Origin: Dehalococcoidia bacterium
GTDB taxonomy: Bacteria; Chloroflexota; Dehalococcoidia; CAUJGQ01
NCBI GenBank assembly: GCA_035310145.1
Contig: DATGEL010000005.1
Location: forward strand, 1 to 64,000
Direction: 5' to 3'
Length of the DNA stretch: 64,000 bases
Made by a program: the position numbers and the translations under genes. Under the pieces are notes generated by a model. It was given only the letters and a program-made list of their open reading frames with translations, had not been told where the DNA came from and searched no databases. This document shows positions 16,260-35,928 of the stretch, one piece after another (within the stretch, counting starts at the first letter, position 1; each line of letters opens with the position of its first letter).

Positions 16260-17054
16260 TTAGTTCACCTGGAACGAGCGCTTCGCCAGGCCGTACCAGT
16301 AGCCGTCGATCGTGAACCGCGGCGCGGTCGCGGCATCAGTCGCCGCGCCGAGCGTCACGAACAGCGGCGCGAAGTGGTCCGTGGTCGGATGGGCGTAGCG
16401 CACCGCCGGAGCGCGGTGGCGGAAGTCGATCAGCTCGTCCACAGCGCCGTGGGCCAGTGCCTCCGTCGCCCAGGCGTCGAACTCGGCCGACCAGGCGGGC
16501 GCGGGCGCATCCGGTGCACGGAAGTCGAGATACGGCAAGCCGTGCGTCATGAAACCGCTGCCCATGATCAGCACGCCCTCGTCGCGCAGCGGCGCCAGCC
16601 GCCGGCCCAGCCTGAACAGCCGCTCCGGATCGAGCGAGGGCATCGAGATCTGCAAGACGGGGATGTCGGCCGCGGGGTACATCACCGTCAGCGGCACGTA
16701 GGCGCCATGGTCGAGGCCGCGCTCGGGATCCTCGGCGACAGGCTCGTCGTGCGGCATCAGCGCCCGCACCTTCGCCGCCAGATCGGCGGCGCCGGGCGCG
16801 TCGTAGCGCACGCGGTAGTACTTCGCCGGGAAGCCGTAGAAGTCGTAGGTCAGCTCCGCCGGGCCGGTGGTGCCAATCGTCAGCGGCGCCGACTCCCAGT
16901 GGGCGCTGACCACAAGAATGGATGAGGGCCGCGGCAACTCGCCGGCCCAGGCCGCAAGCTGCTCGGGCCAGATCGCGTCGTCAACCAGCGGCGGCGCACC
17001 GTGGCCGAGGTACAGCGCGGGCATGCGCGCCGCACCGGTGCTAGATGAGGTCAT
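16260..17054 (-). CDS. DODA-type extradiol ring-cleavage dioxygenase (LigB/YgiD family)
   Basis: A 264-residue class III extradiol dioxygenase related to 4,5-DOPA dioxygenase, opening catechol-like rings with a single metal. The metal and active-site His residues are visible in LGHGAPP near 18, SAHWES near 50, GLDHGAYVPL near 115 and TTDHFAPLF near 235. It lies 25 bp after a VOC-family gene and in the same direction. Both are divergent from an HxlR regulator, which fits a catechol- or quinone-responsive locus. Role is inferred from family and context. Confidence 0.88.
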   Translation of the reverse strand: MTSSSTGAARMPALYLGHGAPPLVDDAIWPEQLAAWAGELPRPSSILVVSAHWESAPLTIGTTGPAELTYDFYGFPAKYYRVRYDAPGAADLAAKVRALMPHDEPVAEDPERGLDHGAYVPLTVMYPAADIPVLQISMPSLDPERLFRLGRRLAPLRDEGVLIMGSGFMTHGLPYLDFRAPDAPAPAWSAEFDAWATEALAHGAVDELIDFRHRAPAVRYAHPTTDHFAPLFVTLGAATDAATAPRFTIDGYWYGLAKRSFQVN

Positions 17055-17079
17055 TGGACGGATTCCCTTCGGGGTTCGG

Positions 17080-17529
17080 TTAGAGCGCCAGCGCCTTCAC
17101 GGGCGCCAGCACCAGCTCCGGGTGGTTCTTCCAGTCGACGCCCGGCACGTCGACGTACAGCTCGATCTCGTTGCCGTCCGGATCGAGGATGTAGAGGCTG
17201 TGGCTCACGGTGTGGTCGCTGGCGCCGACGATGCGCGCCCCGGCGGCCTGCAGGCGCGCCAGCGCCTCGCGCAGATCCTCGTCCGTGTCGCCCACCTTCA
17301 GCCCGAAGTGATAGAGGCCCACCCGGCGGCCCGAGGGGATCGGCTGCGCGTCCGGCCCGACCTCGATCAGCAACAGCTCGTGATGGGTGCGCCCGCCGGA
17401 GAAGAGCGCCACCGGCGCGCCCTCCGGCGTGGGAATGCGCTGCCAGCCGAGCACGTCGCCGTAGAAGGCGGCGGAGTCGCGCACGTTGCGCACGTAGAGC
17501 ACCAGGTGCCCGAGTTCTTTGACGGTCAT
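17080..17529 (-). CDS. VOC/glyoxalase-family metalloenzyme
   Basis: A 149-residue vicinal-oxygen-chelate protein with two beta-alpha-beta-beta-beta modules. Metal-ligand positions appear as LGHLVLYV (His), GLYHFGLKV (His) and GNEIELYV (Glu). The family includes glyoxalases, single-domain ring-cleavage dioxygenases and thiol transferases. ATG 17529 has GGAGGT seven bases upstream, deciding against a longer frame to 17601. It is the first gene of a leftward pair with the DODA dioxygenase and faces the HxlR regulator. Together they resemble catDE-like catechol-detoxification loci, though not by direct homology. Confidence 0.87.
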   Translation of the reverse strand: MTVKELGHLVLYVRNVRDSAAFYGDVLGWQRIPTPEGAPVALFSGGRTHHELLLIEVGPDAQPIPSGRRVGLYHFGLKVGDTDEDLREALARLQAAGARIVGASDHTVSHSLYILDPDGNEIELYVDVPGVDWKNHPELVLAPVKALAL

Positions 17530-17567
17530 GTGAAGACCTCCGATCGCCCGCCCGTGTTCGCGGTGTA

Positions 17568-17581
17568 TACTTACGATAGTA
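17568..17581. promoter_or_regulatory. YodB/CatR-like HxlR operator
   Basis: On the minus strand the sequence reads TACTATCGTAAGTA: inverted arms TACT and AGTA. From memory this is close to the TACTATTTGTAAGTA box bound by the Bacillus HxlR regulators YodB/CatR. It sits 38-52 bp upstream of the VOC start and 50 bp upstream of the HxlR start. Confidence 0.55.
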
Positions 17582-17631
17582 GTGATGGTGTTGGTTCGCA
17601 AGAAGGCACCAAGATGTGATGTAGGTACCCG

Positions 17632-18048
17632 ATGGTAACCAGCATTTCGGACGAACCGGCGGCCGTCTCATCGCTGAGCCCGTTCAGCGCCGGCTGCCCT
17701 ACTCGCACCCTGCTCGACTCGATCGCGGACAAGTGGGCGACACTGGTCATCGACCTCCTCGGCCTCGGTCCACGCCGCTTCGGCGCGCTGCGCCGCGCCA
17801 TCGACGGCATCTCGCAGAAGATGCTGACGCAGACGCTGCGCAACCTCGAACGCGACGGCCTCATCAGCCGCCGCGTCTATCCCACCACGCCGCCCAGCGT
17901 TGAGTACGCGCTCACGCCGCTCGGCGCGACGTTGATCGAGCCGATCGGCGCCCTGCGCGCCTGGGCCGAGGCGAACATCGAGCAGGTGCTCGCCGCCCGC
18001 GACGCCTTCGACGCGCGCTCGAGCAAACAGGTTGAACCGCTGCCCTGA
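17632..18048 (+). CDS. HxlR family transcriptional regulator
   Basis: A 138-residue winged-helix regulator. The family core is clear: the redox-type Cys in AGCPTRTLLDSIADKWATL (about residue 22), RRFGALRRAIDGISQKMLTQTLRNLERDGLI as the recognition helices, and VEYALTPLG in the wing. One N-terminal Cys in this position is what YodB/HypR/CatR use to sense quinones or electrophiles. Divergent from the VOC-DODA pair with a palindromic TACT-N6-AGTA site between, so it probably represses that pair and itself. Confidence 0.92.
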   Translation: MVTSISDEPAAVSSLSPFSAGCPTRTLLDSIADKWATLVIDLLGLGPRRFGALRRAIDGISQKMLTQTLRNLERDGLISRRVYPTTPPSVEYALTPLGATLIEPIGALRAWAEANIEQVLAARDAFDARSSKQVEPLP

Positions 18049-19257: not shown

Positions 19258-19312
19258 GCTCCCCTCCCTCTCCCAGGATTGGGAGAGGGAGGGGTTGGGG
19301 GAGGGTGAGGGC
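19258..19312. repeat. Family 1 element, solo hairpin copy
   Basis: Arms CCCCTCCCTCTCCCA (19261-19275) and complement (19280-19294) around a GGAT loop, then the terminal GAGGGTGAGGGCC. It matches the right half of the 160-bp elements at 20596 and 22448. It lies 12 bp beyond the stop of the amidohydrolase gene, where it could act as a transcript-end hairpin. Confidence 0.75.
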
Positions 19313-19323
19313 CGACTGCCCGC

Positions 19324-20466
19324 TTACACCGCCGCGGCCACCGGCAGCTTCGACTGGTCGATCGCGTAGAGCTGCTGCACGTTCTTCCAGACCATCGCCT
19401 CGCGCTCGTCATCCGGCACGCCGGCCATGATCTCGCGCAATACTTCTTGCGAGCGCGGCCAGATCGAGTCGTGGTGCGGGTAGTCGTTGCCCCACAGCAG
19501 CCGGTCCACGCCGATCGAATAGCGTGTCTCCACGCCGATGTCGTCGTCCTCGAACGTCGCGTAGAACTGGCGCTTGAAATACTCGCTTCCCGTCATCTTC
19601 AGGTCAGGCGAGGCGTCGTTGCGGCTGCGGTAGATCGCGTGGTCGAAGCGCTTGAGCACGTGGCCCAGCCAGCCCGTCTCCCACTCGGCGCAGATGAAAC
19701 GCAGCTTCGGATGCCGCTCGCAGACGCCGCTCGTGATCAGGTTGCTGACCGTGTTCCAGATGCCGGCGTGCGAGAGCGTGTAGCCGACGATCGGATCCCA
19801 GTAGTCGGGCAGGCTCATGCCCCATTCGGCGCCGCAGAAGATGTGCATCGTGATCGGCAGGCCGACCTCTTCCGCCGCCGCCCAGAACGGCTCGTAGACC
19901 GGATCCTTGTACGGCTTGGCGACGGGCGCCGTGCAGGGGATGGCGACGCCGCGGATGCCCATCTTCGCGCAGCGGTACAGCTCCGCGATCGCTTCGTCCA
20001 CGTCGGGCAGCGGCAGGCAGCCGACGCCGATCAGCCGCTCCGGCGAGTGCGAGCAGTAGTCACGGATCCAGTCGTTGTGGCGCTGCATCACCGCCTGCGC
20101 CACCTCGCGGTCCGGGACGGCGAAGGTGAACATGTTCAGGCTGGGATACATCACTTCGCCGACGATGCCGTCGACCTGTTGCTCATTGAGCCGCGCCACC
20201 GGGTCCTTAACGCCGGGATTCATCCCCTCCCAGCCGTGCTTCATGCGCTCGTGCGTCTCCGGCTGGTCGAGCCGGCTGCCGGCGATGCCGAGCCGGCCGA
20301 CGAGGATCGGTCGGTTGAGCTTGGGCCAGTAGAGATAGACGCCCTCGCGGCCGTTGACGCCGTCCACCACGCGCGGCGCCCGGTCGCCAAAGCGATCGAC
20401 GAGGCCGTCGTAGACCTCGGCCGCCTCCACCACGTGCGAATCGCAGGAGTAGAAGATCTGCGCCAT
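19324..20466 (-). CDS. Amidohydrolase-2 family metal-dependent hydrolase/decarboxylase
   Basis: A 380-residue TIM-barrel protein of the ACMSD/gamma-resorcylate decarboxylase superfamily (amidohydrolase_2), acting on C-C or C-N bonds of aromatic or cyclic acids. Metal-site pieces: DSHVVE at the N-terminus, ITMHIFCGAEWG near residue 200 and LLWGNDYPHHDSIWP near 335 (catalytic Asp). ATG 20466 has GAGAGGTGA upstream; the frame farther upstream is a rejected extension. It is the last gene of the leftward catabolic run. A paralog is at 21264-22424. Confidence 0.88.
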   Translation of the reverse strand: MAQIFYSCDSHVVEAAEVYDGLVDRFGDRAPRVVDGVNGREGVYLYWPKLNRPILVGRLGIAGSRLDQPETHERMKHGWEGMNPGVKDPVARLNEQQVDGIVGEVMYPSLNMFTFAVPDREVAQAVMQRHNDWIRDYCSHSPERLIGVGCLPLPDVDEAIAELYRCAKMGIRGVAIPCTAPVAKPYKDPVYEPFWAAAEEVGLPITMHIFCGAEWGMSLPDYWDPIVGYTLSHAGIWNTVSNLITSGVCERHPKLRFICAEWETGWLGHVLKRFDHAIYRSRNDASPDLKMTGSEYFKRQFYATFEDDDIGVETRYSIGVDRLLWGNDYPHHDSIWPRSQEVLREIMAGVPDDEREAMVWKNVQQLYAIDQSKLPVAAAV

Positions 20467-20595
20467 CTTCGTCACCTCTCTCGTGAACCGGGTGCGCCGG
20501 GCTCCGCCATGACTGCCGGCATGCGGCGGCTTCGAGGTCACAATACGCCAAATCCGCGCCCTTCAACAGCGCGCCAGGCATGCCCGCGGCCGTTC

Positions 20596-20755
20596 GGCCC
20601 TCAACCTCTCGTCTCGCCTTCTCCCAATCCTGGGAGAGGGAGACGATCCGGCCTGAAGCGTTCCGATCGGTTTGCGGTTTACCGGACGCCGTCCGAGCCA
20701 GCACCCGAGGATCGCCCCTCGCCCAGGATTGGGCGAGGGGAAGGGGGTGAGGGCC
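20596..20755. repeat. Family 1 palindromic mobile-like element (160 bp, complete)
   Basis: Perfect 8-bp ends GGCCCTCA and TGAGGGCC. A left hairpin (TCTCCCAATCCTGGGAGA) and a right hairpin (CCCCTCGCCCAGGATTGGGC and on) flank a core containing GCGTTCCGATCGG and TTTGCGGTTT. The same order is seen at 22448-22610 and, with the core inverted, at 37737-37897. It occupies half of the 315-bp gap between the cupin gene and the downstream amidohydrolase; nothing else is recognised in that gap. Confidence 0.85.
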
Positions 20756-20781
20756 AGAGCCGCGGTTACGCGCCCAACCGC

Positions 20782-21132
20782 TCAGTCCGACAGCGGGATG
20801 AAGAGCGATACGCGCTCTTGCGTGCCCAGGCCCCTGGTGATGTGGCCCTTGCCCGTCAGGTCTTCGGCCAGCAGAATCGTGCCGGGGCCGATGTGGCGCT
20901 TCTCGCCGTTGGCGCCCTCGACCTCGGCCTCGCCGGAGAGCGTGATCACGAACTGCCGGCGCGGCGCATGGTGCCAGTCCACGAGCTGGTCTGCCGGGCT
21001 GGTGCGGAAGATGATCCCCGCGCCATTGAAGAGCTTCGACGTCTCCGAGGAGCCGTTGGCCGAAAGCTCGATCTGCACGTCCTCGAAGTGCGTCTGGCCG
21101 TCGTCGCCGGCGTACATACGGATGTACTGCAT
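20782..21132 (-). CDS. Small cupin-domain protein
   Basis: A 116-residue single-domain cupin. Motif 1 pieces are DWHHAPRRQFVITLSGEAEVE (about residues 49-69) with the metal-type His and Glu; motif 2 is GPGTILLAEDLTGKGHITR (about 82-100). Likely a metal-binding dioxygenase, isomerase or sensor within the catabolic run; no substrate can be assigned. The ATG at 21132 abuts the end of a palindromic element, so its ribosome site is the element's GGGTGAGG end. Frame continues upstream only through element sequence and is rejected. Confidence 0.85.
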   Translation of the reverse strand: MQYIRMYAGDDGQTHFEDVQIELSANGSSETSKLFNGAGIIFRTSPADQLVDWHHAPRRQFVITLSGEAEVEGANGEKRHIGPGTILLAEDLTGKGHITRGLGTQERVSLFIPLSD

Positions 21133-21266
21133 GGCCTCACCCCCCGGCCCCCTCTCCATGCCATGGAGAGGGGGAGGCTGCGGAACTCGTTTTGAAGTCT
21201 GGAAGCACCCCCTGGCCCGCAAAAGCCCCCTCTCCATGGCATGGAGAGGGGTTGGGGGTGAGGTCA
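21131..21266. repeat. Family 2 palindromic mobile-like element, copy b
   Basis: About 136 bp with ends TGGCCTCACC and GGTGAGGTCA. Two hairpins built on CCCCCTCTCCATGCCATGGAG and CCCCCTCTCCATGGCATGG flank a 50-bp spacer. It fills the entire gap between two minus-strand genes: its right end includes the TGA stop of the amidohydrolase (21264-21266) and its left end touches the ATG of the cupin gene (21130-21132). It is related to 839-972. Confidence 0.85.
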
Positions 21267-22424
21267 GAAGTCGAGGTGGTAGAGCGCGGCGGCGTTGTCG
21301 TGGAAGACGGCGCGGCGCACCTCTTCGGGTTGGCCCGCCATGCAGCGCTCGATATGCTCCTTGGCCGTCTCGGCGGGATAGAGCGAGGTCGGGTGCGGAA
21401 AGTCCGTCTCGAACAGCACATTTTTGTGGCCGATCACGTCCAGCAGCCGCTGCGGCGCCGTCGTTTCGAACCAGAAACAGGCGTAGATCTGGCGCTTGAA
21501 GTACTCGCTGGGCAGCAACTTGTACTCCGGATGCTCTTCACGAACGCCGCTGCCGACCCACTGCCAGTCCATCGCCTCCATCAGGAACGGGATCCAGCCG
21601 ATGCCGCTCTCGACGGAAACGAACTTCAGATCGGGGAAGCGGTGGCAGATGCCGCTGAAGATGATCTCCATCACGGCGTAGGCGTTGTTGATGAAGAGGC
21701 CGACGCCGGAGGCGGCGAAGTTGGCGTGCTTGCCGTTCTCTTTGAACTGCTTGTGCTCCGAGCTGAGGTCGCCGGAGCCGATGTGGAAGTTGATCGGCAG
21801 TTGCAGGTCCTGCGCCGCCGCCCAGATCGGGTTCCAATGCGGATCGGCCAGCATCGGCAGATCGAAGTCGTCCGGCTCGCTGGTGAAGATCACGCCTTTA
21901 TGCCCGAGTTTCCGGGCGCGGTGCATCTCCTTCACCGACGCCTCGACATCCCAGAAGGGCAGCACGCAGAGCGGCACCAGCCGCCCCTTGCCCGGCGCCG
22001 ACCACTCGATCGCGAAGTCGTTGTAGGCCCTGGCGCTCTCCAGCATCAGCTCGGGGTCCTTGAGCTTGAGGAAGCGGCCGCTGCCGAAGCCGGCGACGTT
22101 GGGATAGAGCACGTGGGCGTAAATGCCTTCTTCGTCCATCAGCCGCAGCCGTTCGATCGGGTTGAAGGCGCCCTGGTGCGCATCCTCGTACGTCGGCGGA
22201 TTGTTGGGCGGCGGCTCCTTCCAGCCGGCCATCGCCGCGGCCGGCGCGGCGGCGATCATCTCGTCGCCGATGAACCAGGCGAGGTTGCCGCGCTCCTCGT
22301 TCTTCTTGACGTGCAGGACTTTGTCGCCCCACTTCTTGGTGGAGACGCGCGAGGTCCAGAGATCGGCCGGCTCCGAGATGTGTGTGTCGACGTCGATGAT
22401 CTTGAGCGGCTGTGCGGTGACCAT
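21264..22424 (-). CDS. Amidohydrolase-2 family protein (paralog)
   Basis: A 386-residue TIM-barrel metal-dependent hydrolase or decarboxylase. Metal-site elements: IIDVDTHISEPADLW at the N-terminus (DxHxxE-type), INFHIGSGD near residue 215, VSVESGIGWIPFLME near 278, and VLFETDFPHPTSLYP near 350 with the catalytic Asp. It has the same overall plan as the protein at 19324-20466, so the two arose by duplication and may act on successive or related substrates. ATG 22424 has AAGGAGCC upstream. Probably cotranscribed with the cupin gene across a palindromic element. Confidence 0.88.
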   Translation of the reverse strand: MVTAQPLKIIDVDTHISEPADLWTSRVSTKKWGDKVLHVKKNEERGNLAWFIGDEMIAAAPAAAMAGWKEPPPNNPPTYEDAHQGAFNPIERLRLMDEEGIYAHVLYPNVAGFGSGRFLKLKDPELMLESARAYNDFAIEWSAPGKGRLVPLCVLPFWDVEASVKEMHRARKLGHKGVIFTSEPDDFDLPMLADPHWNPIWAAAQDLQLPINFHIGSGDLSSEHKQFKENGKHANFAASGVGLFINNAYAVMEIIFSGICHRFPDLKFVSVESGIGWIPFLMEAMDWQWVGSGVREEHPEYKLLPSEYFKRQIYACFWFETTAPQRLLDVIGHKNVLFETDFPHPTSLYPAETAKEHIERCMAGQPEEVRRAVFHDNAAALYHLDF

Positions 22425-22447
22425 TCGCTGGCTCCTTGCGGCCTGTC

Positions 22448-22610
22448 GGCCCTCATCCCCCTTCCCCTTCTCCCAATCCTGGGAGAAGGGGCGATCCTGC
22501 GTCGGGCGCTCCGTAGCCGGTGCGGTTACCCATGCTCCCTCTCGGCATCGCGATGCCGAGCCTCCCCTCGCCCAGGATTGGGACCAGAGGATATCCCGGG
22601 GGTGAGGGCC
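22448..22610. repeat. Family 1 palindromic mobile-like element (163 bp)
   Basis: Ends GGCCCTCA (22448-22455) and TGAGGGCC (22603-22610), with the same two-hairpin plan and degenerate core (GCGCTCCG and GTGCGGTTACC) as 20596-20755. It lies 24 bp upstream of the amidohydrolase start, so the leader of that gene runs out of the element. Confidence 0.85.
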
Positions 22611-22633
22611 GAAAGCCGGGTGAGGCCCGCCAG

Positions 22634-22675
22634 CCTCTCTCCTACGCCCTATGCCCTCCGACCTACGCCCTCAAA
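22634..22675 (-). repeat. Pyrimidine-rich imperfect short-repeat tract a
   Basis: Repeats of the type CCTACGCCCT, ATGCCCTCCG, ACCTACGCCC at the 3' end of the CoA-transferase gene and running into its stop codon. Similar tracts lie at 25194, 29722, 34828, 45212 and, inverted, 62542. Confidence 0.6.
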
Positions 22676-23921
22676 TTACGCCTTCGGCCCGCAGCTTCGC
22701 CAGATCTGCTTCGGTCAGGCCCAGTTCAGCGAAGACCTCGGCGTTGTCTTCGCCGAGCAGCGGGGCACGGCGGCGGATCTGCCACGGGGTCCTGGTGAAG
22801 CGGATCGGCGCGCCGGGGTAAAGGAAGGTTTTGCCTAGCTCCGGGTGCTCGACCTCGACCTGGAAGCCGCGGGCCTTCAGGTGCTCGTCTTCGAACGCCT
22901 CTTCCGGGCTGTAGACGATGCTGACCTGGAAGCCGCGCTGCTGCGCGCCCTGGAAGAAGTCCATGGCCGGCGTGCGCTCCGCGATGAAGTTGAGCGCGTC
23001 GCGGCCGGCGCCGAGGCGGGCGCGCACGTTGTCGTCGCTGGCAACCCGGTCGAGCTTGAGGCCGCCGGTCTCTTCGATCGCCAGTTCGAGGATCGGCGTC
23101 TGGTCGAACTCTTCGGCGATACCCAGCTCGTGCAGCCAGTCGAGCACGCTGCGGAACTGGGCGGCCGTGCGCGGCGGCACACCGGAGACGACGTAGCGGC
23201 CGTCGGCGCAGCGGATCTGCGTGGGCTGCGTGCCGTGCACGGAGGCGTGGCGGCCGGTCTGGCGCTGCACGGTCTCGCGCATGCCGAGCCAGGTGTACGT
23301 GCCGGCTTCCGTCGTGACGTTGGCGCAGGCGTGCATGTTGACGTCGATGTGCTGGCCGCGGCCGCTGCGCTCGCGCGAGAGCAGCGCGACGAGCGTGGAC
23401 ATCACGGCGAAATGGCAGGCGGTGTGGTAGCCCTGGTTGCCGCCGCCGCGCACCGGCGGCAGCGCGTGGTCGTCGTAGCCGCACATCCACACCGGCCCGC
23501 CGCCCGCGAGGATGGTCAGGTCGGTGAACGCCTGGTTCGTACGCGGGTCGGCGAGGCCGAACGGCGTGATCGTCACCACGATCAGGCGAGGATTCCGCTG
23601 CAGCAGCTCGTGCCAATCTGAATCGGGCGCCAGCCCCGGCGCGGCGCCGGCGACGGGGCACGCGAGCAAGACATCGGCCTGCCGCACCAGACGATCGAAG
23701 AGAGCGCCGCCCGCCGCCGCTTCCCGGTTGAGCGTGACGCCGCGCTTGCTCGTGTGGTAGTGCCAGCGCAGGAGCTGCCGCTCGGGCGTGAGTCCATCAG
23801 CACCGGGCTGCTCGACCAGGACGACAGCCGCGCCCATGTCGGCCATGAGCTTGCCGGCAAACGAACCGTACTCGCTGGCCACTTCAATGACCGTGACTCC
23901 GGTGAGCGGCCCTGCCGTCAT
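22671..23921 (-). CDS. CaiB/BaiF CoA-transferase, subunit with catalytic Asp
   Basis: A 416-residue type III CoA-transferase. The catalytic Asp aligns as D134 in TDLTILAGGGPVWMCG. Other landmarks are IEVASEYGSFAGKLMADMGAAVV near the N-terminus, TSKRGVTLN near 58 and the C-terminal RRRAPLLGEDNAEVF. Its ATG overlaps the stop of the preceding CoA-transferase by four bases (ATGA), implying a coupled heteromer. The partner lacks the Asp, so this would be the active half, as in BbsEF-type transferases. The substrate is probably an aromatic or branched acid, judging by the neighbouring hydroxylase. Confidence 0.9.
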   Translation of the reverse strand: MTAGPLTGVTVIEVASEYGSFAGKLMADMGAAVVLVEQPGADGLTPERQLLRWHYHTSKRGVTLNREAAAGGALFDRLVRQADVLLACPVAGAAPGLAPDSDWHELLQRNPRLIVVTITPFGLADPRTNQAFTDLTILAGGGPVWMCGYDDHALPPVRGGGNQGYHTACHFAVMSTLVALLSRERSGRGQHIDVNMHACANVTTEAGTYTWLGMRETVQRQTGRHASVHGTQPTQIRCADGRYVVSGVPPRTAAQFRSVLDWLHELGIAEEFDQTPILELAIEETGGLKLDRVASDDNVRARLGAGRDALNFIAERTPAMDFFQGAQQRGFQVSIVYSPEEAFEDEHLKARGFQVEVEHPELGKTFLYPGAPIRFTRTPWQIRRRAPLLGEDNAEVFAELGLTEADLAKLRAEGVI

Positions 23922-25201
23922 ATCGCACCGCTCTGCTGCATCACTCCGATCGCCGGCGTGCTGTAGCCGAGGATTTCGCCGAGCACGCAGCCGTTGTGCT
24001 CACCAAGGCAGGCGGCGCCGCGCTCAATCGTCCAGTCTGTTTCGGACAGGTGCACCGGCTGCCCATCCACGCGCACGCCGCCGAGCTCGGTGTGCTGCGC
24101 CTCCGGCCACAGCCCCCACGCCGCCGTATTCACATCGTGGTCGATGCGCTCCTCCGGCGACACGACGGCGCTCGCCGGCACACCGTGCTCCTGCAACAGC
24201 TGGGCTATTTCGCGGGCCTCGGCCCGCCCGGTCCAGTCCGCTATCAACGCGTCAAGTTCGTCCTCGTGCTCAGCGCGCCCTTCCAGCGTTTGGAAGCGCT
24301 TCTCCTTCATCCAGGGGAGATCAAGCGCCGAACACATGCACTCCCAGTCGTGCTGATCGCGACAGGCGATCGCCACCCAGCGGTCCTCGCCGTTCGCCGG
24401 GTAGACGCCATGCGGAACCATGCGATGGCCCAGCTCAAGCCCCTGGTCGCGGTTGCTGTTGGGCATGCCGGGGCGGCGCAGCGGGCGGCCGTTGATGGTG
24501 TAGTCCAGCAACGCGGGGCCGTTCAGCGTGGCGGCGACTTCGGTCGTGGCCATGTCCACCCACTGGCCCTCGCCCGTGCGCTCGCGGTGGAAGAGCGCGG
24601 CCATGATCGCGATCGCCATGTAGTAGGCGCCCGTGTGGTCCATGTAGGAGTAGCCCCAGCCGGCCGGCGGCTGGTCCGGCAGGCCGGACTGAAAGGTCAG
24701 GCCCGAAAACGCCTGCACGCTCGGCCCCCAGGTCTTGTACTGCTTGTACGGCCCGGTGTGGCCGAAGCCGCAGTTGGAGACGTAGACGATGTCCGGCCGG
24801 ATCTGCCGCAGCCGCTCGTAGCCAAAGCCCAGCCGCTCCATCACGCCCGCGGCGAAGTTCTCCGAGACCACGTCCGAAACGGCGATCAGGTCTTCGAGCG
24901 CCCGCCGCGCCGAGGCGGTGCGCAGGTTCAGCGTGATCCCCAGCTTCTCGACGTTGTGGTTGTTGAAGCTGATGCTGCGGTCTGTCCCCGGCTTGTGGTC
25001 CTTGAACGGCCCCATCTGCCGCAGGATGTCCCAGCGGCCCTGATTGGTCGGGTCTTCGATGCGGATCACCTGCGCGCCGAAAGCGGCCATGAAGCGCGTT
25101 GCGCCCGCGCCCGCGAGCTGGCCGGTAAAGTCGCAGATGCGCAGGTGTCCAAGCGCGGATGGGCCGGAGGGAACGCCGTCCAACATCGCTTTCCCACTCA
25201 C
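23918..25201 (-). CDS. CaiB/BaiF CoA-transferase, subunit lacking catalytic Asp
   Basis: A 427-residue type III CoA-transferase fold. Where the catalytic Asp should be, the sequence is TWGPSVQAFSG (residues 157-167), with Gly at the Asp position. Other marks: GAQVIRIEDPTNQGRWD near 43, VVSENFAAGVMERLGFGYE near 111 and HGVYPANGEDRWVAIACRD near 284. The start is GTG 25201; ATG 25186 is possible. The leader is a pyrimidine-tract repeat (purine-rich on this strand). It is coupled by ATGA to the Asp-containing subunit downstream, so it is probably a structural or CoA-binding partner. Confidence 0.9.
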   Translation of the reverse strand: MSGKAMLDGVPSGPSALGHLRICDFTGQLAGAGATRFMAAFGAQVIRIEDPTNQGRWDILRQMGPFKDHKPGTDRSISFNNHNVEKLGITLNLRTASARRALEDLIAVSDVVSENFAAGVMERLGFGYERLRQIRPDIVYVSNCGFGHTGPYKQYKTWGPSVQAFSGLTFQSGLPDQPPAGWGYSYMDHTGAYYMAIAIMAALFHRERTGEGQWVDMATTEVAATLNGPALLDYTINGRPLRRPGMPNSNRDQGLELGHRMVPHGVYPANGEDRWVAIACRDQHDWECMCSALDLPWMKEKRFQTLEGRAEHEDELDALIADWTGRAEAREIAQLLQEHGVPASAVVSPEERIDHDVNTAAWGLWPEAQHTELGGVRVDGQPVHLSETDWTIERGAACLGEHNGCVLGEILGYSTPAIGVMQQSGAI

Positions 25202-25237
25202 TCCTGTTTCCTATTTTCTAGTTGCTATTTCCTGTCG
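25194..25237 (-). repeat. Pyrimidine-rich imperfect short-repeat tract b
   Basis: CTCCTGTTTCCTATTTTCTA and GTTGCTATTTCCTGTCG between the HpaB-type gene stop and the CoA-transferase start. On the transcribed sense it reads as AGGAAA/AGGA-like units directly before the GTG start. Confidence 0.6.
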
Positions 25238-26843
25238 AGCCATCGGTCACGCCTCCGGCGGGCCGAGCACCCGAAACGGTGCTTTGCGGCTGCGTACCCG
25301 CGGGGTAGGCGCCGGCCATCGCTCCGGGCGGCGGGCGGTAGCGCGGGCGGGCGCCGGGGCGCTCGGACGAGATCGGCAGCGACGTGCCCTCGCGCCGGCC
25401 GAGCGCCCGCTCCACGATCTCGCTCAGCGGCTCTTTGTCGTACTGCAGGTAGAAGCCGGCCATGTTGCGGATCGGGTCGCCGGAGTAGAACCTCACGTAC
25501 TGCTGCATGCGCTGCGCGAACGACTCGCCGGTCACGTCCCAGGCGAGCTTGAACAGCGACACCCGCTCCTCCGCAGAGATGCCCGGCCGCCCGCGCACGA
25601 ATTTGTCCACATACGGCCGGATCTCAGGGCTGAGCAGGTCCGCCTCCGACGGCGCGTAGAAGAAGCCGCCGCCGGCCAGGCTCTGCACGATCTCGACGAA
25701 GCGGGCGTAGATCTGCGGCGTGTGCAGGTGAAACGCGCGGCCGCCCAGCCCGCCGGAGAGCCAGACGCCGTCTGGCCCCGGCTGCGCCGTCGCCTCCGTG
25801 CCGTAGAAGACGGCGCGGGCGATCTCGAGATACGAGAGCATCTCGCCCAGTTTCTCCTGCACGTGCAGAAAGCCGGTGATGCCGATGCAGTCCGCCAGCT
25901 TCGTGGCCAGGCCGCAGAAGAACTCCATCTGGCTGAGCATGCGCGCCGCGATCTGCAGCTCGGTCGTCGAGCCCACGGCGGCGAAGATCGGGTTGATGAT
26001 CGCGCCGCTGCCCGGCGAGCCGTCCACCAGCACCCGCTCCCAGGGCACGACCACATCCTCGAAGATGGCGATGCAGTCCATCTCCTCGAAGCGGCTGCTG
26101 AGCGGGTGGTCAAAGCGCGAGCGTGGCAAGGGCGAAACCGTCTCGCGGCAGATGAACTTCATGCCGGGCGTATCGATCGGGATCGAGAACGTCACGGCGT
26201 AGGCGTCGTCGCCGGGCGCCACGCCGCCGTAGGGGATGACCGCGACCTCCTCGGTGAGCGGCGCCATCGTACCCAGCATCTTAGCGCCGCGTACGACGAT
26301 CCCCTCGCTCGTCTCCCCGACTTTGCCCAGGTGCAGGAACGGGTCCTCCTGCTGCGCCGAGGTACGCGAGCGGTCGATCTGCGGGTTGATCAGCATGTGC
26401 GTGAGAAACAGGTCGTTCTCCCGCGCGAACTCATGGTAGCGCACGGCGTTCTCGCCGTACTCCGGCTTCCCTCTGGCGAAGTGCTGCTTCGCCAGGCTCC
26501 AGCCGGTGACGAAGCAGTTCATGAAGTCCGGCCCGCGGCCCAAAAAGCCGAAGTTGTGGTCGGCGCGCAGCTTGCAGTGCTGCCGCTTCTGGATCAGCTC
26601 TGCCCGCGAGCGCGGCACGAGGAACGAGGTCGAGACCGGATCGCCGCTGCTGGGCGAGCAGAAGGTCATCACCTCGCGGTAGGCCGGGTCGAGCTGCATG
26701 TCGTACAGCTCGGCGATCGCGCGCATCGGCTCCTGCAAGATCGGTTCTTCGGTCACGTCGACAACGCGCCGCCCGCCGAGATAGACACACGGCTTGCGCC
26801 GCTTCAGCGACTCGATGTACTGCTGGCCGGAGCGAGCGGGCAT
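25218..26843 (-). CDS. 4-hydroxyphenylacetate 3-monooxygenase (HpaB)-family flavoprotein
   Basis: A 541-residue member of the HpaB / 4-hydroxybutyryl-CoA dehydratase superfamily, with an acyl-CoA-dehydrogenase-like fold. HpaB proteins hydroxylate phenols using FADH2 from a separate reductase. Landmarks: SFLVPRSRAELIQKR near 72, FLGRGPDFMN near 100, FLTHMLINPQIDRS near 146, GIVVRGAKMLGTMAP near 180 and PWERVLVDG near 268. The closely spaced Cys pair of Fe-S dehydratases was not seen, so a monooxygenase is favoured. The last 45 residues are Pro/Gly-rich and unusual. No HpaC-type reductase is adjacent. It precedes the CoA-transferase pair by 17 bp, so hydroxylation may be linked to CoA activation. 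Confidence 0.87.
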   Translation of the reverse strand: MPARSGQQYIESLKRRKPCVYLGGRRVVDVTEEPILQEPMRAIAELYDMQLDPAYREVMTFCSPSSGDPVSTSFLVPRSRAELIQKRQHCKLRADHNFGFLGRGPDFMNCFVTGWSLAKQHFARGKPEYGENAVRYHEFARENDLFLTHMLINPQIDRSRTSAQQEDPFLHLGKVGETSEGIVVRGAKMLGTMAPLTEEVAVIPYGGVAPGDDAYAVTFSIPIDTPGMKFICRETVSPLPRSRFDHPLSSRFEEMDCIAIFEDVVVPWERVLVDGSPGSGAIINPIFAAVGSTTELQIAARMLSQMEFFCGLATKLADCIGITGFLHVQEKLGEMLSYLEIARAVFYGTEATAQPGPDGVWLSGGLGGRAFHLHTPQIYARFVEIVQSLAGGGFFYAPSEADLLSPEIRPYVDKFVRGRPGISAEERVSLFKLAWDVTGESFAQRMQQYVRFYSGDPIRNMAGFYLQYDKEPLSEIVERALGRREGTSLPISSERPGARPRYRPPPGAMAGAYPAGTQPQSTVSGARPAGGVTDGSTGNSN

Positions 26844-26876
26844 GGCGCTTCCTCGATTTACGATCTCCGGCGGGCT

Positions 26877-27665
26877 TCAGCCCACGAACACGCCGCCGCT
26901 GGGGTGCAGCAGCTCGCCGGTGAAGAACGAGGCCTCGTCCGAGGCGAGGAAAAGCGCCGTGTTGGCGATCTCCTCCGGCTGGCCGAAGCGGCCCATCCAG
27001 GTCATACCCAGCACGCGGCGCTGAGCCTCCTCATCGGTGCGCAGGCGCTCCGTCATCGGCGTCTCGATAAAGCCGGGGCCGATGGCGTTGACGCGGATGC
27101 CGCTCGTCGCCAGCTCCATCGCCAGCACTTTGGTCAGCATCCAGACGCCCGCCTTACTGATGCTGTAGGCGCCGCCCTGCCCCGGCATGCGCGACATGAT
27201 CGAGCCGAGGTTGATGATGCTGCCCGGCCGCTTGTTAGCCAGCATCCAGGCGGCGGCGGCCTTGTCCGAGTAGTAGACGCCCCAGAAGTTGACGTCGATC
27301 ACGCGCTTGAACCAGTCCACCGGCATCGTCAGCACCGTGAACGGCTGCTGGGGCTGCTCCTCCGTCGCCGGCCTGCCGGAGCCGATGCCCGCCGCGGCCA
27401 CCAGCACATCGACGGCGCCGAAGGCCGAGACGCACTGCTGCACCATGCGCTCGTTCGCCGCCTGGTCGGTGGTGTCCACCTGCAGCGCCGTCGCTTTGCC
27501 GCCGGCCGCCTCGACCTGGCGCACCGTTTCGGCGGCGCCTTCGAGGTTCATGTCGGCGGCGCAGACCGCGGCGCCTTCTCTGGCGAAGCGCAGGCAGCAG
27601 GCGCGGCCAATGCCGCTGCCGCCGCCCGTCACCAACGCAACCTTGCCCTCAAGCCGTCCGGCCAT
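26877..27665 (-). CDS. SDR family oxidoreductase
   Basis: A 262-residue classical short-chain dehydrogenase using NAD(P)H. Cofactor motif VTGGGSGIGRA near residue 12; NAG equivalent is AAAGIGSG near 90; the active-site Ser is in LGSIMSRMPG and YSISK (Tyr-x-x-x-Lys) follows near 155. The dimer segment ends in GGVFVG. ATG 27665 is chosen because AAGGGA lies upstream; a start at 27698 is also open. It lies 33 bp before the HpaB-type gene in the same direction. Confidence 0.9.
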   Translation of the reverse strand: MAGRLEGKVALVTGGGSGIGRACCLRFAREGAAVCAADMNLEGAAETVRQVEAAGGKATALQVDTTDQAANERMVQQCVSAFGAVDVLVAAAGIGSGRPATEEQPQQPFTVLTMPVDWFKRVIDVNFWGVYYSDKAAAAWMLANKRPGSIINLGSIMSRMPGQGGAYSISKAGVWMLTKVLAMELATSGIRVNAIGPGFIETPMTERLRTDEEAQRRVLGMTWMGRFGQPEEIANTALFLASDEASFFTGELLHPSGGVFVG

Positions 27666-27734
27666 CGTCAATCCCTTGACTCGATCATCGCTGCCCACTA
27701 ACAGAGGACACCCAGCTAGCAGCCCACCGGGATG

Positions 27735-28778
27735 TCATGGAGTCGGCGAATATAGCTCAATGGCCTTGGCCAAGGCATTAGAAATGTCAGACCGATCCCA
27801 GCGGCTCACCTCAAACTGAAACGATATCCCGTTGTGCAGGTGAATCAAGAGATGCTTCCGGAACAGGCCAGTGCCCCCGCGGCTATCTATCCTCTCAACA
27901 TCCCTCCATGCATTGCTAGCCGTCGGGGACTGCCCCGGAGTGACAGGATTCTGATAGAATGCAAATCCGGTGCTGTATATTATGATCAGCCCCGTGCGCT
28001 TTTGCGAGTTTGTGATCAGTGTGACCGCAAACTTTCCAGTTACGACCGCAGCACACTCCCCCTCACGCACAGCTCCTGCGCTCTTGCCATTGCCAAAGAC
28101 ACGCTCTTCCAAGTCGATAGGCATGGCTTGTCCGAACTGGGCCACGTATGCATGGTAAGTCGCCGGATCCAGTAGCATTTGAAGGAAGCTGAGAACAGAT
28201 GGTATTACTCCCTTTTGGATCACAAACTTCCATTGCCCCCCATCTCTCATGCAGATGACTAGTGTGGGGATCACCACATACGAATTTTCCTGTCTTGCGG
28301 TAGCTATTTCATGATACGGAATACTGACAACGGTGATATCAGATGTATACAGCCTTGGAACATAGAGCAATCTTCTATCAGTGAAGACCAGATCGCCTTT
28401 ATCTGACATTGATGTTCCAAACATCGCCTCGGCTTCCATAAGATAAAGTTCTTGATTACCATCGTCCTCGCGATTCGAAGCGGAATGACTCGAACTTTCT
28501 TGGCGTGAATATGTACCGGAGGATCGATCAAGATTGTCGCGTATATCCCAGTCGCAGTCATAGGCTCTCCTCTCCACTTCGTCACTCAGCACATCATGAG
28601 CACGATTGAGGCTCTTCATGACAGAGTTGTCACCGTTGACTTTGTCTGGGTGATACTCCTGCGATAGGCGTCGATAGGCGGCTTCGATCACTGGAAGGGT
28701 GGCATTCCTGTGCACCTGAAGGATTTCGTAGTAGTCTTCCCATAGTATTAGCCACTGCTTCTGATCCATGACTTGCAC
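27735..28778 (-). CDS. J-domain protein with two PH/GRAM-like modules, low-GC
   Basis: A 347-residue protein. The N-terminal J domain (about 12-75) has the diagnostic HPD in EYHPDK, so it should stimulate an Hsp70 ATPase. After a Ser-rich linker (about 85-105) come two beta-rich blocks (about 110-225 and 240-345). The first has LVFTDRRLLYVPR and IPYHEIATARQ, the pattern of bacterial PH/GRAM-like domains; the second has LIIIYSTGFAFY and WRDVERIDSR and may be a degenerate copy. Zn-finger and Gly/Phe regions of DnaJ are absent. Base composition is near 45-50% GC by eye, against about 70% around it. This indicates recent transfer; it splits an otherwise catabolic run. Client unknown. Confidence 0.82.
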   Translation of the reverse strand: MQVMDQKQWLILWEDYYEILQVHRNATLPVIEAAYRRLSQEYHPDKVNGDNSVMKSLNRAHDVLSDEVERRAYDCDWDIRDNLDRSSGTYSRQESSSHSASNREDDGNQELYLMEAEAMFGTSMSDKGDLVFTDRRLLYVPRLYTSDITVVSIPYHEIATARQENSYVVIPTLVICMRDGGQWKFVIQKGVIPSVLSFLQMLLDPATYHAYVAQFGQAMPIDLEERVFGNGKSAGAVREGECAAVVTGKFAVTLITNSQKRTGLIIIYSTGFAFYQNPVTPGQSPTASNAWRDVERIDSRGGTGLFRKHLLIHLHNGISFQFEVSRWDRSDISNALAKAIELYSPTP

Positions 28779-28804
28779 GCCTCATCGCAGAGTGAATCGC
28801 CGAT

Positions 28805-29719
28805 TCAGGTGGCGCGACTCTCTTCGCGGAGCCGTACTCCTCCTCTGGCTTCAACCATCTTCGCAATGCTGGTGAAGTCGTCATCGCCGTAGCCTTCGGC
28901 GACGGCGTGGCGCCAGGCGTTGACGTTCGCCTCGCAGACGATCGTGGGCACGCCCAGCGACTCGGCCAGCTCCTCGAACAGCTTCACGTCCTTCAGCATA
29001 TGCTTCGTGAGGAAGCCACCCTGAAAGCGGCCCGTCAACACCTGGCGCGGGATCTGACCCAGCGTGGCGCTGTTGCTGCCGCTGCCCGCGTTCAGCACAT
29101 CGACCGCGAGGGCAGGGTCGATCCCCGCCTTCGCGGCCACGGCCAGCGCCTCGGACGTCGCTGCCAGCGCCATCGAGGAGAGGATGTTGTTGACCAGCTT
29201 CATCGCCTGCCCCATGCCCGGCTCGGCGCCGAGGTAGAAGACGTTCTTGCCAATGATGCCGAGCAGGTCGCGGTGCGCCTCGTAGAGCGCCGCCTCGCCC
29301 GCGCACATCACCGCCAGCGTGCCCTCTTCGGCACCGCGGATTCCGCCGCTCACGGGCGCATCCAGAAAGCCGATGCCGCGCGCCGTCAGCGCCGCGGCCA
29401 CCCGCCGGCTCACCGTCACGCCGGTCGTGGAGAGGTCGATCAGACAACCGCGAAAGCCTGCCGCCGCGATGATGCCATCCTCGCCCGTCGCGACCGCTTC
29501 CAGCACGGCCGGCTCAGGCAGGCTGGCGAAGATGACGTCCGCCGCCTCGGCCACGGCGCGCGGCGTGCCGCAGACCGTGACCTCGGCCCGGTCGGCGAAC
29601 GGCGCCAGCGCCGCCGCGTTCACGTCGCAGACCGCGAGGGGATGGCCGGCGCCGTGCAGCCGGCGCGCCATCGGGCCGCCCATGTGCCCAAGCCCGATGA
29701 AGCCGATCCGCTCGCTCAT
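28805..29719 (-). CDS. 3-hydroxyisobutyrate dehydrogenase-like NAD(P)-dependent oxidoreductase
   Basis: A 304-residue beta-hydroxyacid dehydrogenase. N-terminal IGFIGLGHMGGPMARRL holds NAD(P); the substrate motif is FLDAPVSGGIRGAEEGTLAVM near 115; the catalytic Lys is in GMGQAMKLVNN near 170. It oxidises or reduces hydroxy acids such as 3-hydroxyisobutyrate or tartronate semialdehyde. ATG 29719 is preceded by a repeat tract reading AGGTGA, AGGTAACAGGTGA on the sense strand, several of which could serve as ribosome sites. Same direction as the SDR genes around it. Confidence 0.9.
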   Translation of the reverse strand: MSERIGFIGLGHMGGPMARRLHGAGHPLAVCDVNAAALAPFADRAEVTVCGTPRAVAEAADVIFASLPEPAVLEAVATGEDGIIAAAGFRGCLIDLSTTGVTVSRRVAAALTARGIGFLDAPVSGGIRGAEEGTLAVMCAGEAALYEAHRDLLGIIGKNVFYLGAEPGMGQAMKLVNNILSSMALAATSEALAVAAKAGIDPALAVDVLNAGSGSNSATLGQIPRQVLTGRFQGGFLTKHMLKDVKLFEELAESLGVPTIVCEANVNAWRHAVAEGYGDDDFTSIAKMVEARGGVRLREESRAT

Positions 29720-29721
29720 CC

Positions 29722-29756
29722 CGCCTGTCACCTGTTACCTGGCACCTATCACCTGC
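29722..29756 (-). repeat. Pyrimidine-rich imperfect short-repeat tract c
   Basis: CGCCTGTCACCTGTTACCTG then GCACCTATCACCTG: four ACCT units at 7-8 base spacing. On the sense of the flanking minus-strand genes these are AGGTGA-like Shine-Dalgarno units in tandem directly before ATG 29719. Confidence 0.65.
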
Positions 29757-29758
29757 AT

Positions 29759-30580
29759 TCAGACCAGCCCGGCGTCGGTGAAGGCACGGTCGATGCGGTT
29801 GAAACGCCGCTGGATGAAGCCGCGCGCCTCGGCGTGCGTATGGATGTAGAGCCGGTTCTCGCGCACACCTTTCAGCACCAGCTCGGCCACCTCGTCCGGC
29901 TCGATGTGGCGGCCGACCACGGCCTCCTGCTCCTCTTCGGAGCGCGTCGGCGCCGCCACGGGCCCGCCGAACTCCGGCTGGCGGTTGCGGCCGGCGAAGC
30001 GGATGTTGGTGTTCACGACCATCGGGCAGAGCACGGAGACGCCGATGCCGTAGGCGCTGAGGTCGCGGAACAGGACCTCGGAGAGGCCGAGCACGCCGTA
30101 CTTGGAGACGCAGTAAACGCCCAGCCCCTGGTTCGGGATCAGGCCGGCGAACGAGGCGGTGTTGACAATGTGCCCACCCTCACCCTGTTCAAGCAGGCGC
30201 GGCACGAAGACCTCGACGCCGTGGATCACGCCCCAGAGGTTGACCTGCAACACCCACTGCCAGTCGGCGTGCGTCATTTCCTGGATCGGCCCGGCGCGGT
30301 TGACGCCGGCGTTGTTGAAGACGACGTGGACTTTGCCGAAGCGTTGAACCGTACGCTCGGCGAGGCGCTGCACGTCTTCCAGCTTGCCGACGTCGGTCCG
30401 CACGCCAAGAGCCTCGGCGCCGGCCGCCTCAAGGCCACGTGCCGCGGCGTCGAGCGGCGCCTGCTCGATGTCGGCGATCACGATCTTCAAGCCCTCACGG
30501 GCGAAGCGCCGCGCCGTGGCGAGGCCGATGCCGCTGGCGCCGCCGGTGATCACCGCGACTTTCCCGGCCAAATCCTGCAT
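29759..30580 (-). CDS. SDR family oxidoreductase
   Basis: A 273-residue classical short-chain dehydrogenase. VITGGASGIGLATARRF near residue 10 binds the cofactor and VIADIE near 34 suggests NAD; NNAGVNRAG is near 88, followed by the catalytic Ser in NTASFAGLIP and Tyr/Lys in YCVSK near 157. It is the first gene of the leftward catabolic run. Substrate unknown. Confidence 0.9.
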   Translation of the reverse strand: MQDLAGKVAVITGGASGIGLATARRFAREGLKIVIADIEQAPLDAAARGLEAAGAEALGVRTDVGKLEDVQRLAERTVQRFGKVHVVFNNAGVNRAGPIQEMTHADWQWVLQVNLWGVIHGVEVFVPRLLEQGEGGHIVNTASFAGLIPNQGLGVYCVSKYGVLGLSEVLFRDLSAYGIGVSVLCPMVVNTNIRFAGRNRQPEFGGPVAAPTRSEEEQEAVVGRHIEPDEVAELVLKGVRENRLYIHTHAEARGFIQRRFNRIDRAFTDAGLV

Positions 30581-31607: not shown

Positions 31608-32036
31608 CTATTGCGCCACGATCTCCTGCCGGTATGGCGCAACCGCTGCCAGCGCCCGTGCGACCAGCGGCTCCGGCACGCCGGCGATGGCGAACGCTTC
31701 GTTGAAGTAGATCAGCATACGATCGAAGTCGGCTGCGGTGATGCCACGGCCCGCGTGCGCCTCGTGCATCGAGCGCCCCGTGTATTGCTCCGGCCCGTGC
31801 AGCACCAGGCCGAGGAACTCGCGCTGGTGCCGCTTCAACTCCTCCAGGTCCGTGTGCGCGAAGAACGCGGCCAGCCGCGCGTTGCCAAGCACGCGCAGAT
31901 AGAACGCATCGACCACCTTTTCGAGCACCGGCGCGCCGCCGATCGCCTGATAGAGGCTCCTCCGCGTGCTTCGCGCCAACGCCGCCTCCGGATCGCTGCC
32001 ACACCGAAGCGGGAGGCACCGAACTCGCACGTTCAT
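31608..32036 (-). CDS. Truncated hemoglobin (group I-like)
   Basis: A 142-residue trHb of 2-on-2 globin fold, binding O2 or NO with heme. The core is YQAIGGAPVLEKVVDAFYLRVL, FFAHTDLEELKRHQREFL, and the proximal His in MHEAHAGRGI. The first 20-odd residues (basic, Cys-containing) are unlike family members and the true start may be a TTG at about residue 22. It is convergent with the protease gene and divergent from the LuxR regulator. A second trHb is at 35542-35928. Confidence 0.88.
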   Translation of the reverse strand: MNVRVRCLPLRCGSDPEAALARSTRRSLYQAIGGAPVLEKVVDAFYLRVLGNARLAAFFAHTDLEELKRHQREFLGLVLHGPEQYTGRSMHEAHAGRGITAADFDRMLIYFNEAFAIAGVPEPLVARALAAVAPYRQEIVAQ

Positions 32037-35370: not shown

Positions 35371-35541
35371 CACGTCCTCGTCAACATCTCCACCTACTGG
35401 GCATAGCGCGGCTGCCGGCCCTTGCGTCCCTCTCTGCGCCGGGGCCGCGGCAGCGCCCCCCTCCGTCACTTCACGTCACGGACAAGCAGGTCGCCCGCGT
35501 CATCGATTCCGGTGGCGCGGAGCGCCGAGGAGCGAAACGTC

Positions 35542-35928
35542 ATGCGGCACGATACTTCGATCTACGACGCGATCGGCGGGCAGCCGGCGGTGCTGGCCGC
35601 GGTGGAAGAGTTCTACCGGCGCGTGCTGGCCGATCCGGCGCTCGCCCCCTTCTTCGCAGAGATCCCCATGCAGCGGCTGAAGGGACATCAGGCCGCCTTC
35701 TTCGCTATGGCGCTGGGCGGACCGGACCGCTACAAGGGCAGATCCATGCGCGAGGCGCATGCCGGCCGCGACATTATCGACAGCGATTTCGACCGCGTCG
35801 CGCAGCACCTCACCGACACGCTCGAATCGCTCGAAGTCGACCAGGAAACGATCGGTCAGATCATCGGCCACGTCGCGCTACTGCGCAGCGAGGTGGTCGA
35901 CGCGGAGACGGAGGAGCCGGCGGCGTAA
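35542..35928 (+). CDS. Truncated hemoglobin (group I-like), second copy
   Basis: A 128-residue trHb beginning MRHDTSIYDAIGG. Features: VEEFYRRVLADP, FFAEIPMQRLKGHQAAFF, MREAHAGRDI with the proximal His, and a short C-terminal helix. ATG 35542 follows GAGGAG; the frame upstream is a non-homologous extension and is rejected. It is clearly paralogous to the protein at 31608-32036. Likely role: O2 or NO binding or redox protection. Confidence 0.9.
   Translation: MRHDTSIYDAIGGQPAVLAAVEEFYRRVLADPALAPFFAEIPMQRLKGHQAAFFAMALGGPDRYKGRSMREAHAGRDIIDSDFDRVAQHLTDTLESLEVDQETIGQIIGHVALLRSEVVDAETEEPAA

Follow-up and report, generated by a model that had tools for sequence, protein, structure and literature searches.

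Ten genes lie on the minus strand between positions 19324 and 30580 of the window, the whole 64,000-nucleotide stretch of Dehalococcoidia DNA that was analysed. They gave strong family matches (Table 1). All of the gene types named in the preliminary description were recovered at their coordinates and on the minus strand, but its list had left out the gene for a DnaJ-domain protein. For P0001 the start was taken as 20466, and residue numbers follow the long open reading frame (19324-20541).

Table 1. Genes of the minus-strand run and repeats in its spacers, in window positions
Feature	Position	Strand	Description
P0009	29759-30580	-	Short-chain dehydrogenase/reductase (SDR)
P0008	28805-29731	-	3-Hydroxyisobutyrate-dehydrogenase-like (HIBADH-like) protein
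P0007	27735-28778	-	DnaJ-domain protein, 347 aa; atypical codon composition; Pfam E 2e-17
P0006	26877-27698	-	SDR
P0005	25218-26843	-	HpaB-type monooxygenase, flavin-dependent; retains Arg100 and His142, with Phe for Tyr104
P0004	23918-25201	-	CaiB/BaiF subunit like BbsF, with the catalytic Asp
P0003	22671-23921	-	CaiB/BaiF subunit like BbsE; catalytic Asp absent
Inverted pair of palindromic repeats	22470-22584		P0002/P0003 spacer
P0002	21264-22424	-	PF04909 protein; six of seven ligands, with Thr as the seventh residue (DFPHPT); mononuclear signature like that of AibH1
Small cupin-like protein	20782-21132	-	Weak Cupin_2 match
Inverted pair of palindromic repeats	20621-20735		P0001/cupin spacer
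P0001	19324-20466	-	PF04909 protein with the complete dinuclear-oxygenase ligand set; probable PtmU3-type dinuclear oxygenase

Seven genes, from 30580 to 22671, were tightly packed, with gaps of -3 to 36 nt. The two CaiB genes overlap by 4 nt, and the HpaB-type gene lies 17 nt from the CaiB gene P0004; this spacing and overlap make it likely that the strain transcribes the HpaB and CaiB genes together. The small gaps described previously do not extend to the last three genes, where the spacers 3' of P0003 measure about 247, 131, and 315 nt. The stretch from 30580 to 22671 is probably one seven-gene transcription unit, with three looser genes after it. The high-GC3 codon pattern of the host genome was found in 9 of the 10 genes. 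Within the run, between the HIBADH-like gene and the SDR gene P0006, the DnaJ gene displayed a codon GC of 0.56/0.41/0.54, compared with a GC3 of about 0.9 in its neighbors. P0007 is probably an insertion that bears no relation to the enzymes.

A cupin gene had been reported as part of the run. A cupin-like gene is indeed present, but it sits between the two PF04909 genes, and its match to Cupin_2 (E 8e-4) is under the Pfam cut-off. Its start is probably at 21132, since the upstream part of the open reading frame is repeat-like DNA. Structure prediction for this protein gave a pLDDT of 42 and was unusable. Homologues were found in 17 of 301 genomes of the phylum, the host genome included, and in none of these genomes outside the host did the gene adjoin a homologue of the PF04909 pair of the window. 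The palindrome CTCCCAATCCTGGGAG, with up to 2 mismatches allowed, occurs six times in the window (at 19270, 20621, 20720, 22470, 22569, and 37863), compared with 0.01 copies expected. Five of the six copies lie beside the cupin-like gene, P0001, and P0002, in the spacers and the 3' flank, and two inverted pairs are formed whose members are 99 bp apart. These palindromes are REP-like.

On one side of the run, at 16260-18048, the minus strand carries a gene for a LigB-type extradiol dioxygenase (16260-17054) together with a VOC protein gene, with an HxlR-type regulator gene divergent from them. These ring-cleaving candidates are a separate unit from the ten-gene run. Elsewhere in the window, two bacterial-globin genes (31608-32036 and 35422-35928) lie either side of a gene for a LuxR-type AAA regulator.

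CoA-transferase pair and HpaB-type hydroxylase

The best PDB matches of the two CaiB/BaiF proteins were the chains of 9fn0, each of which is named "Subunit of Benzylsuccinate CoA-transferase." P0004 matched 9fn0_B (E 1.5e-57), with the catalytic Asp kept, and P0003 matched the other subunit, 9fn0_A (E 1e-35), with an NQ.Y motif at the catalytic Asp position, as in BbsE. The names BbsE and BbsF were assigned to the two chains on the ground that one of them is without the Asp. P0003 and P0004 are thus adjacent CaiB subunits with a single catalytic Asp, the arrangement of the benzylsuccinate CoA-transferase BbsEF. The pair was adjacent in all five of the closest homologous loci and is therefore a conserved unit. 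The Asp pattern and the PDB matches support the previous assignment of a CoA-transferase pair for CoA activation, and they suggest that P0003 and P0004 form a heteromeric BbsEF-type enzyme. Unlike in the Bbs system, neither a benzylsuccinate synthase gene nor any further bbs gene was found among the window genes examined. In G021, a genome of the same class and the nearest useful relative, the BbsEF-like pair lies near dimethylformamidase beta-like and thiolase-like proteins (L061, 9875-17966).

P0005 gave a full-length match and is close to HpaB of Thermus thermophilus, a 4-hydroxyphenylacetate 3-monooxygenase (PDB 2yyg). Its score against TIGR02309 was 421.3 bits, below the equivalog cut-off of 480.2 bits. 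Of the HpaB triad Arg100-Tyr104-His142 (PMC10537072), the equivalents of Arg100 and His142 are conserved in P0005 and Tyr104 is replaced by Phe, so that two of the three residues are retained. This Phe was found in all nine orthologues and also in some more distant relatives. No hpaC, hpaD, or hpaE gene adjoins P0005, and neither Pfam scans of selected genes nor a motif scan across the entire window revealed a flavin reductase in the region. The host genome encodes five flavin reductases, all on other contigs, one of which (on C22) adjoins a paralogue of P0005 with 41% identity. Collectively, the kept residues support the flavin-dependent hydroxylase type proposed previously; P0005 is likely a phenol hydroxylase, an activity predicted from sequence, and action on 4-hydroxyphenylacetate is not supported. 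A second HpaB-type gene, at 52570-54072 of the window, encodes a protein with 35% identity to P0005 and a Tyr at the Tyr104 position.

Ligand residues of the two PF04909 proteins

P0001 is a PF04909 TIM-barrel protein (Pfam E 5e-30). Its best PDB match was PtmU3 (6omp; E 8e-55), a nonheme diiron monooxygenase of the amidohydrolase superfamily, followed by DitZ, with decarboxylases well behind. The PDB title of the DitZ entry reads "Manganese-substituted DitZ from Rhodococcus Rhodochrous," and a literature search for DitZ gave no publication. By alignment, all seven dinuclear positions are occupied in P0001 (D34, H36, H233, E286, D353, H356, and D358). The corresponding residues of AibH2 are Asp25, His27, His211, Glu265, Asp337, and His340, with Asp342 nearby; PtmU3 carries Glu313 at the seventh position, the mononuclear AibH1 is without an acid there, and the seventh acid is regarded as a marker of binuclear sites (PMC7782822). 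A remark in PMC7782822 places PtmU3 on CoA thioesters.

The structural model of P0001, built from a three-sequence alignment, was of moderate confidence (pTM 0.75, pLDDT 62). A fold search with this model returned PtmU3 on top (TM 0.78/0.83), followed by DitZ and other PF04909 structures. P0001 shares about 30% identity with PtmU3 and has Asp358 in place of Glu313, and its surroundings look catabolic, whereas those of PtmU3 are biosynthetic. In a tree, P0001 did not group specifically with PtmU3 among the dinuclear-type proteins. P0001 also has the PF04909 TIM barrel and the D-x-H, H, E, and D-x-x-H residues with a seventh acid that characterize the amidohydrolase-related dinuclear oxygenase (ARO) family. 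A nearby Rieske ferredoxin or reductase served as a search criterion for that family, which is less than a strict definition (PMC10811679). Known AROs usually have a Rieske or ferredoxin partner as a neighbor, and P0001 is without one: no Rieske motif occurred in any frame of the whole window, and Pfam scans of selected genes combined with the whole-window motif scan detected no Rieske or ferredoxin partner near it. The full ligand set was present in nine PF04909 proteins of the host genome, located in the window and on contigs C7, C12, C16, C41, C44, C104, C107, and C110.

Based on the PtmU3 and DitZ matches, the seven ligands, and the model fold, P0001 is a probable dinuclear oxygenase. Its predicted activity is C-H hydroxylation rather than decarboxylation or hydrolysis, although ligand identity alone is not proof of oxygenase activity.

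P0002 has 28% identity to P0001, and PtmU3 and DitZ likewise led its PDB matches, with decarboxylases well behind. In the alignment, the first six ligands are present and the seventh position is occupied by Thr, a residue common to all eight aligned homologues of P0002. P0002 therefore shows the lack of a seventh-position acid that marks a mononuclear partner.

In the pathway proposed by the preliminary description, hydroxylation by the HpaB-type enzyme, with aromatic acids as candidate substrates, is followed by CoA activation through the CaiB pair and then by decarboxylation or hydrolysis of the ring or side chain, for which the two amidohydrolases would be responsible. Known decarboxylases do belong to the same Pfam family as P0001 and P0002. 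However, the decarboxylase-type comparators carry H-x-H at the first two positions and/or His at the E286 position, and Tyr or Phe as the third residue after the conserved Asp; in P0001 and P0002 these positions read D-x-H, E, and D-x-x-H, with His as that third residue, so neither protein shows the residues shared by the ACMSD or gamma-resorcylate type of PF04909 decarboxylase. A decarboxylase or hydrolase role for either protein is thus disfavored by its aligned ligand residues, P0001 having the full PtmU3/AibH2 set and P0002 an AibH1-like set.

The two proteins might instead form a heteromeric hydroxylase like AibH1H2, the 2-aminoisobutyrate hydroxylase of Rhodococcus wratislaviensis, with P0001 as the dinuclear catalytic subunit and P0002 as the mononuclear partner. 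There too, a dinuclear-type and a mononuclear-type PF04909 gene lie close together, and AibH1 and AibH2 share 28% identity (PMC7782822), the same value as P0001 and P0002. P0001 and P0002 are encoded on one strand inside a 3.1-kb interval, and their ligands match those of AibH2 and AibH1, respectively. However, the cupin gene and repeat-bearing spacers come between them, no AibF/AibG-type redox partners are found nearby, and P0002-type proteins have the seventh-position Thr. Neighboring P0001 and P0002 homologues were not seen in G021 or elsewhere in the host genome, and the G021 orthologue of P0001 (68% identity) is apart from the P0002 homologues. Since the P0002 homologues elsewhere stand alone, pairing is only possible, and we consider a heteromer unlikely.

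Gene order, chance adjacency, and proposed roles

Conservation of the order was searched for with P0001 to P0005 and the cupin-like protein as queries, each against 300-350 genomes of the phylum. Contigs of named genomes were searched further with P0005, and plasmids with P0005 and P0001. No copy of the ten-gene order was found in any of these sets. In G021, the P0001 homologue (68%) lies on contig C7, the P0002 homologue (53%) on C9, and the CaiB pair (48 and 57%) on C10, and the only HpaB homologue (35%) is elsewhere on C7; the gene set is therefore scattered there. The preliminary description had suggested looking for the order in Chloroflexota genomes and had named scattering in relatives as the finding that would tell against its pathway, and scattering is what was observed.

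Orthologues of P0005 were 55-74% identical to it: those of Rokubacteria at 73-74%, and those of actinobacteria and a single Chloroflexi genome at 55-60%. The neighbors of the HpaB relatives differ, and close orthologues share neighbors only within a Streptomyces-type group. A BbsE/BbsF-like pair was found within 5 kb of none of 20 HpaB relatives in named genomes, most of them belonging to other phyla and several of these loci having short flanks; in one locus (L090), a distant CaiB pair (34 and 31%) lies 5-8 kb from the HpaB relative. In a Rokubacteria locus (L080, 2838-8189), a 74% HpaB orthologue lies near a PF04909 protein and, on the opposite strand, a methyltransferase, a single CaiB protein, a Rieske protein, and a Fer2/FAD/NAD reductase. 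This locus was considered as an AibH-type system and rejected, as its PF04909 protein is of decarboxylase type (DYPYD, H-x-H) and HpaB is on the opposite strand.

These searches do not support a conserved pathway defined by the order of the run, and the order should not serve as a pathway marker. The co-directional genes, tightly spaced from SDR to CaiB, would suit the decarboxylation or hydrolysis pathway proposed previously, but with its gene order not conserved and the ligand residues against it, that pathway is highly improbable.

Nine HpaB-type genes were counted in the host genome (5.3 Mb in 148 contigs), along with 24 matches to PF04909 and 109 to CaiB, the latter spread over about 64 places. 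One of the nine HpaB genes has a CaiB gene within 2 kb, compared with about 0.8 expected, and three PF04909 genes do, compared with about 2 expected; both expectations are approximations that ignore contig ends. Because this density of CaiB genes gives adjacency at chance level, co-location alone is little evidence. Chance juxtaposition of separate units is accordingly a serious rival: a BbsEF-like pair, a roaming HpaB, separate PF04909 genes, and SDRs would share no common substrate. The unrelated DnaJ gene within the run, the different neighbors of each gene's relatives, and the repeat-bearing spacers around the last three genes are all consistent with such a juxtaposition, but the likely co-transcription of the closely spaced HpaB and CaiB genes argues against it. 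We regard it as quite possible, though not as the favored explanation.

The reading that we favor, with a probability of about 0.55, is that of a lineage-specific catabolic gene run drawn from families that are expanded in the genome. The families, the aligned ligand sets, and the lack of a conserved order are established at the level of sequence comparison. The CaiB pair would load CoA onto a carboxylic acid. P0001 would be a dinuclear oxygenase (Fe/Fe or Mn/Fe) that depends on O2 and hydroxylates a C-H bond; its substrate would plausibly be a CoA thioester, as is reported for PtmU3. P0005 would hydroxylate a phenol ortho to the hydroxyl group, drawing on reduced flavin from a source encoded elsewhere in the genome, and the SDRs and the HIBADH-like enzyme would oxidize the resulting alcohols. 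We infer that all of these enzymes may act on a single compound. More tentatively, and with considerable doubt, the genes may represent a CoA-dependent aerobic pathway in which BbsEF-like activation precedes PtmU3-type hydroxylation of the thioester, with or without P0002, and in which this oxygenase family, with its nine full-set paralogues, has been multiplied as an all-purpose means against recalcitrant compounds.

Expansions of CaiB/BaiF and flavin monooxygenase families have been described in SAR202-type Chloroflexi (PMC5395668, PMC6306507), and the host genome resembles these in having a large CaiB/BaiF expansion beside oxidative enzymes. The word "amidohydrolase" is absent from the main text of both papers. 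"Amidohydrolase" annotations in paralogue-rich genomes may hide many dinuclear C-H hydroxylases. A check of the seven ligand residues tells such enzymes from their decarboxylase-type relatives, and it alters how the catabolic potential of such uncultured bacteria is read.
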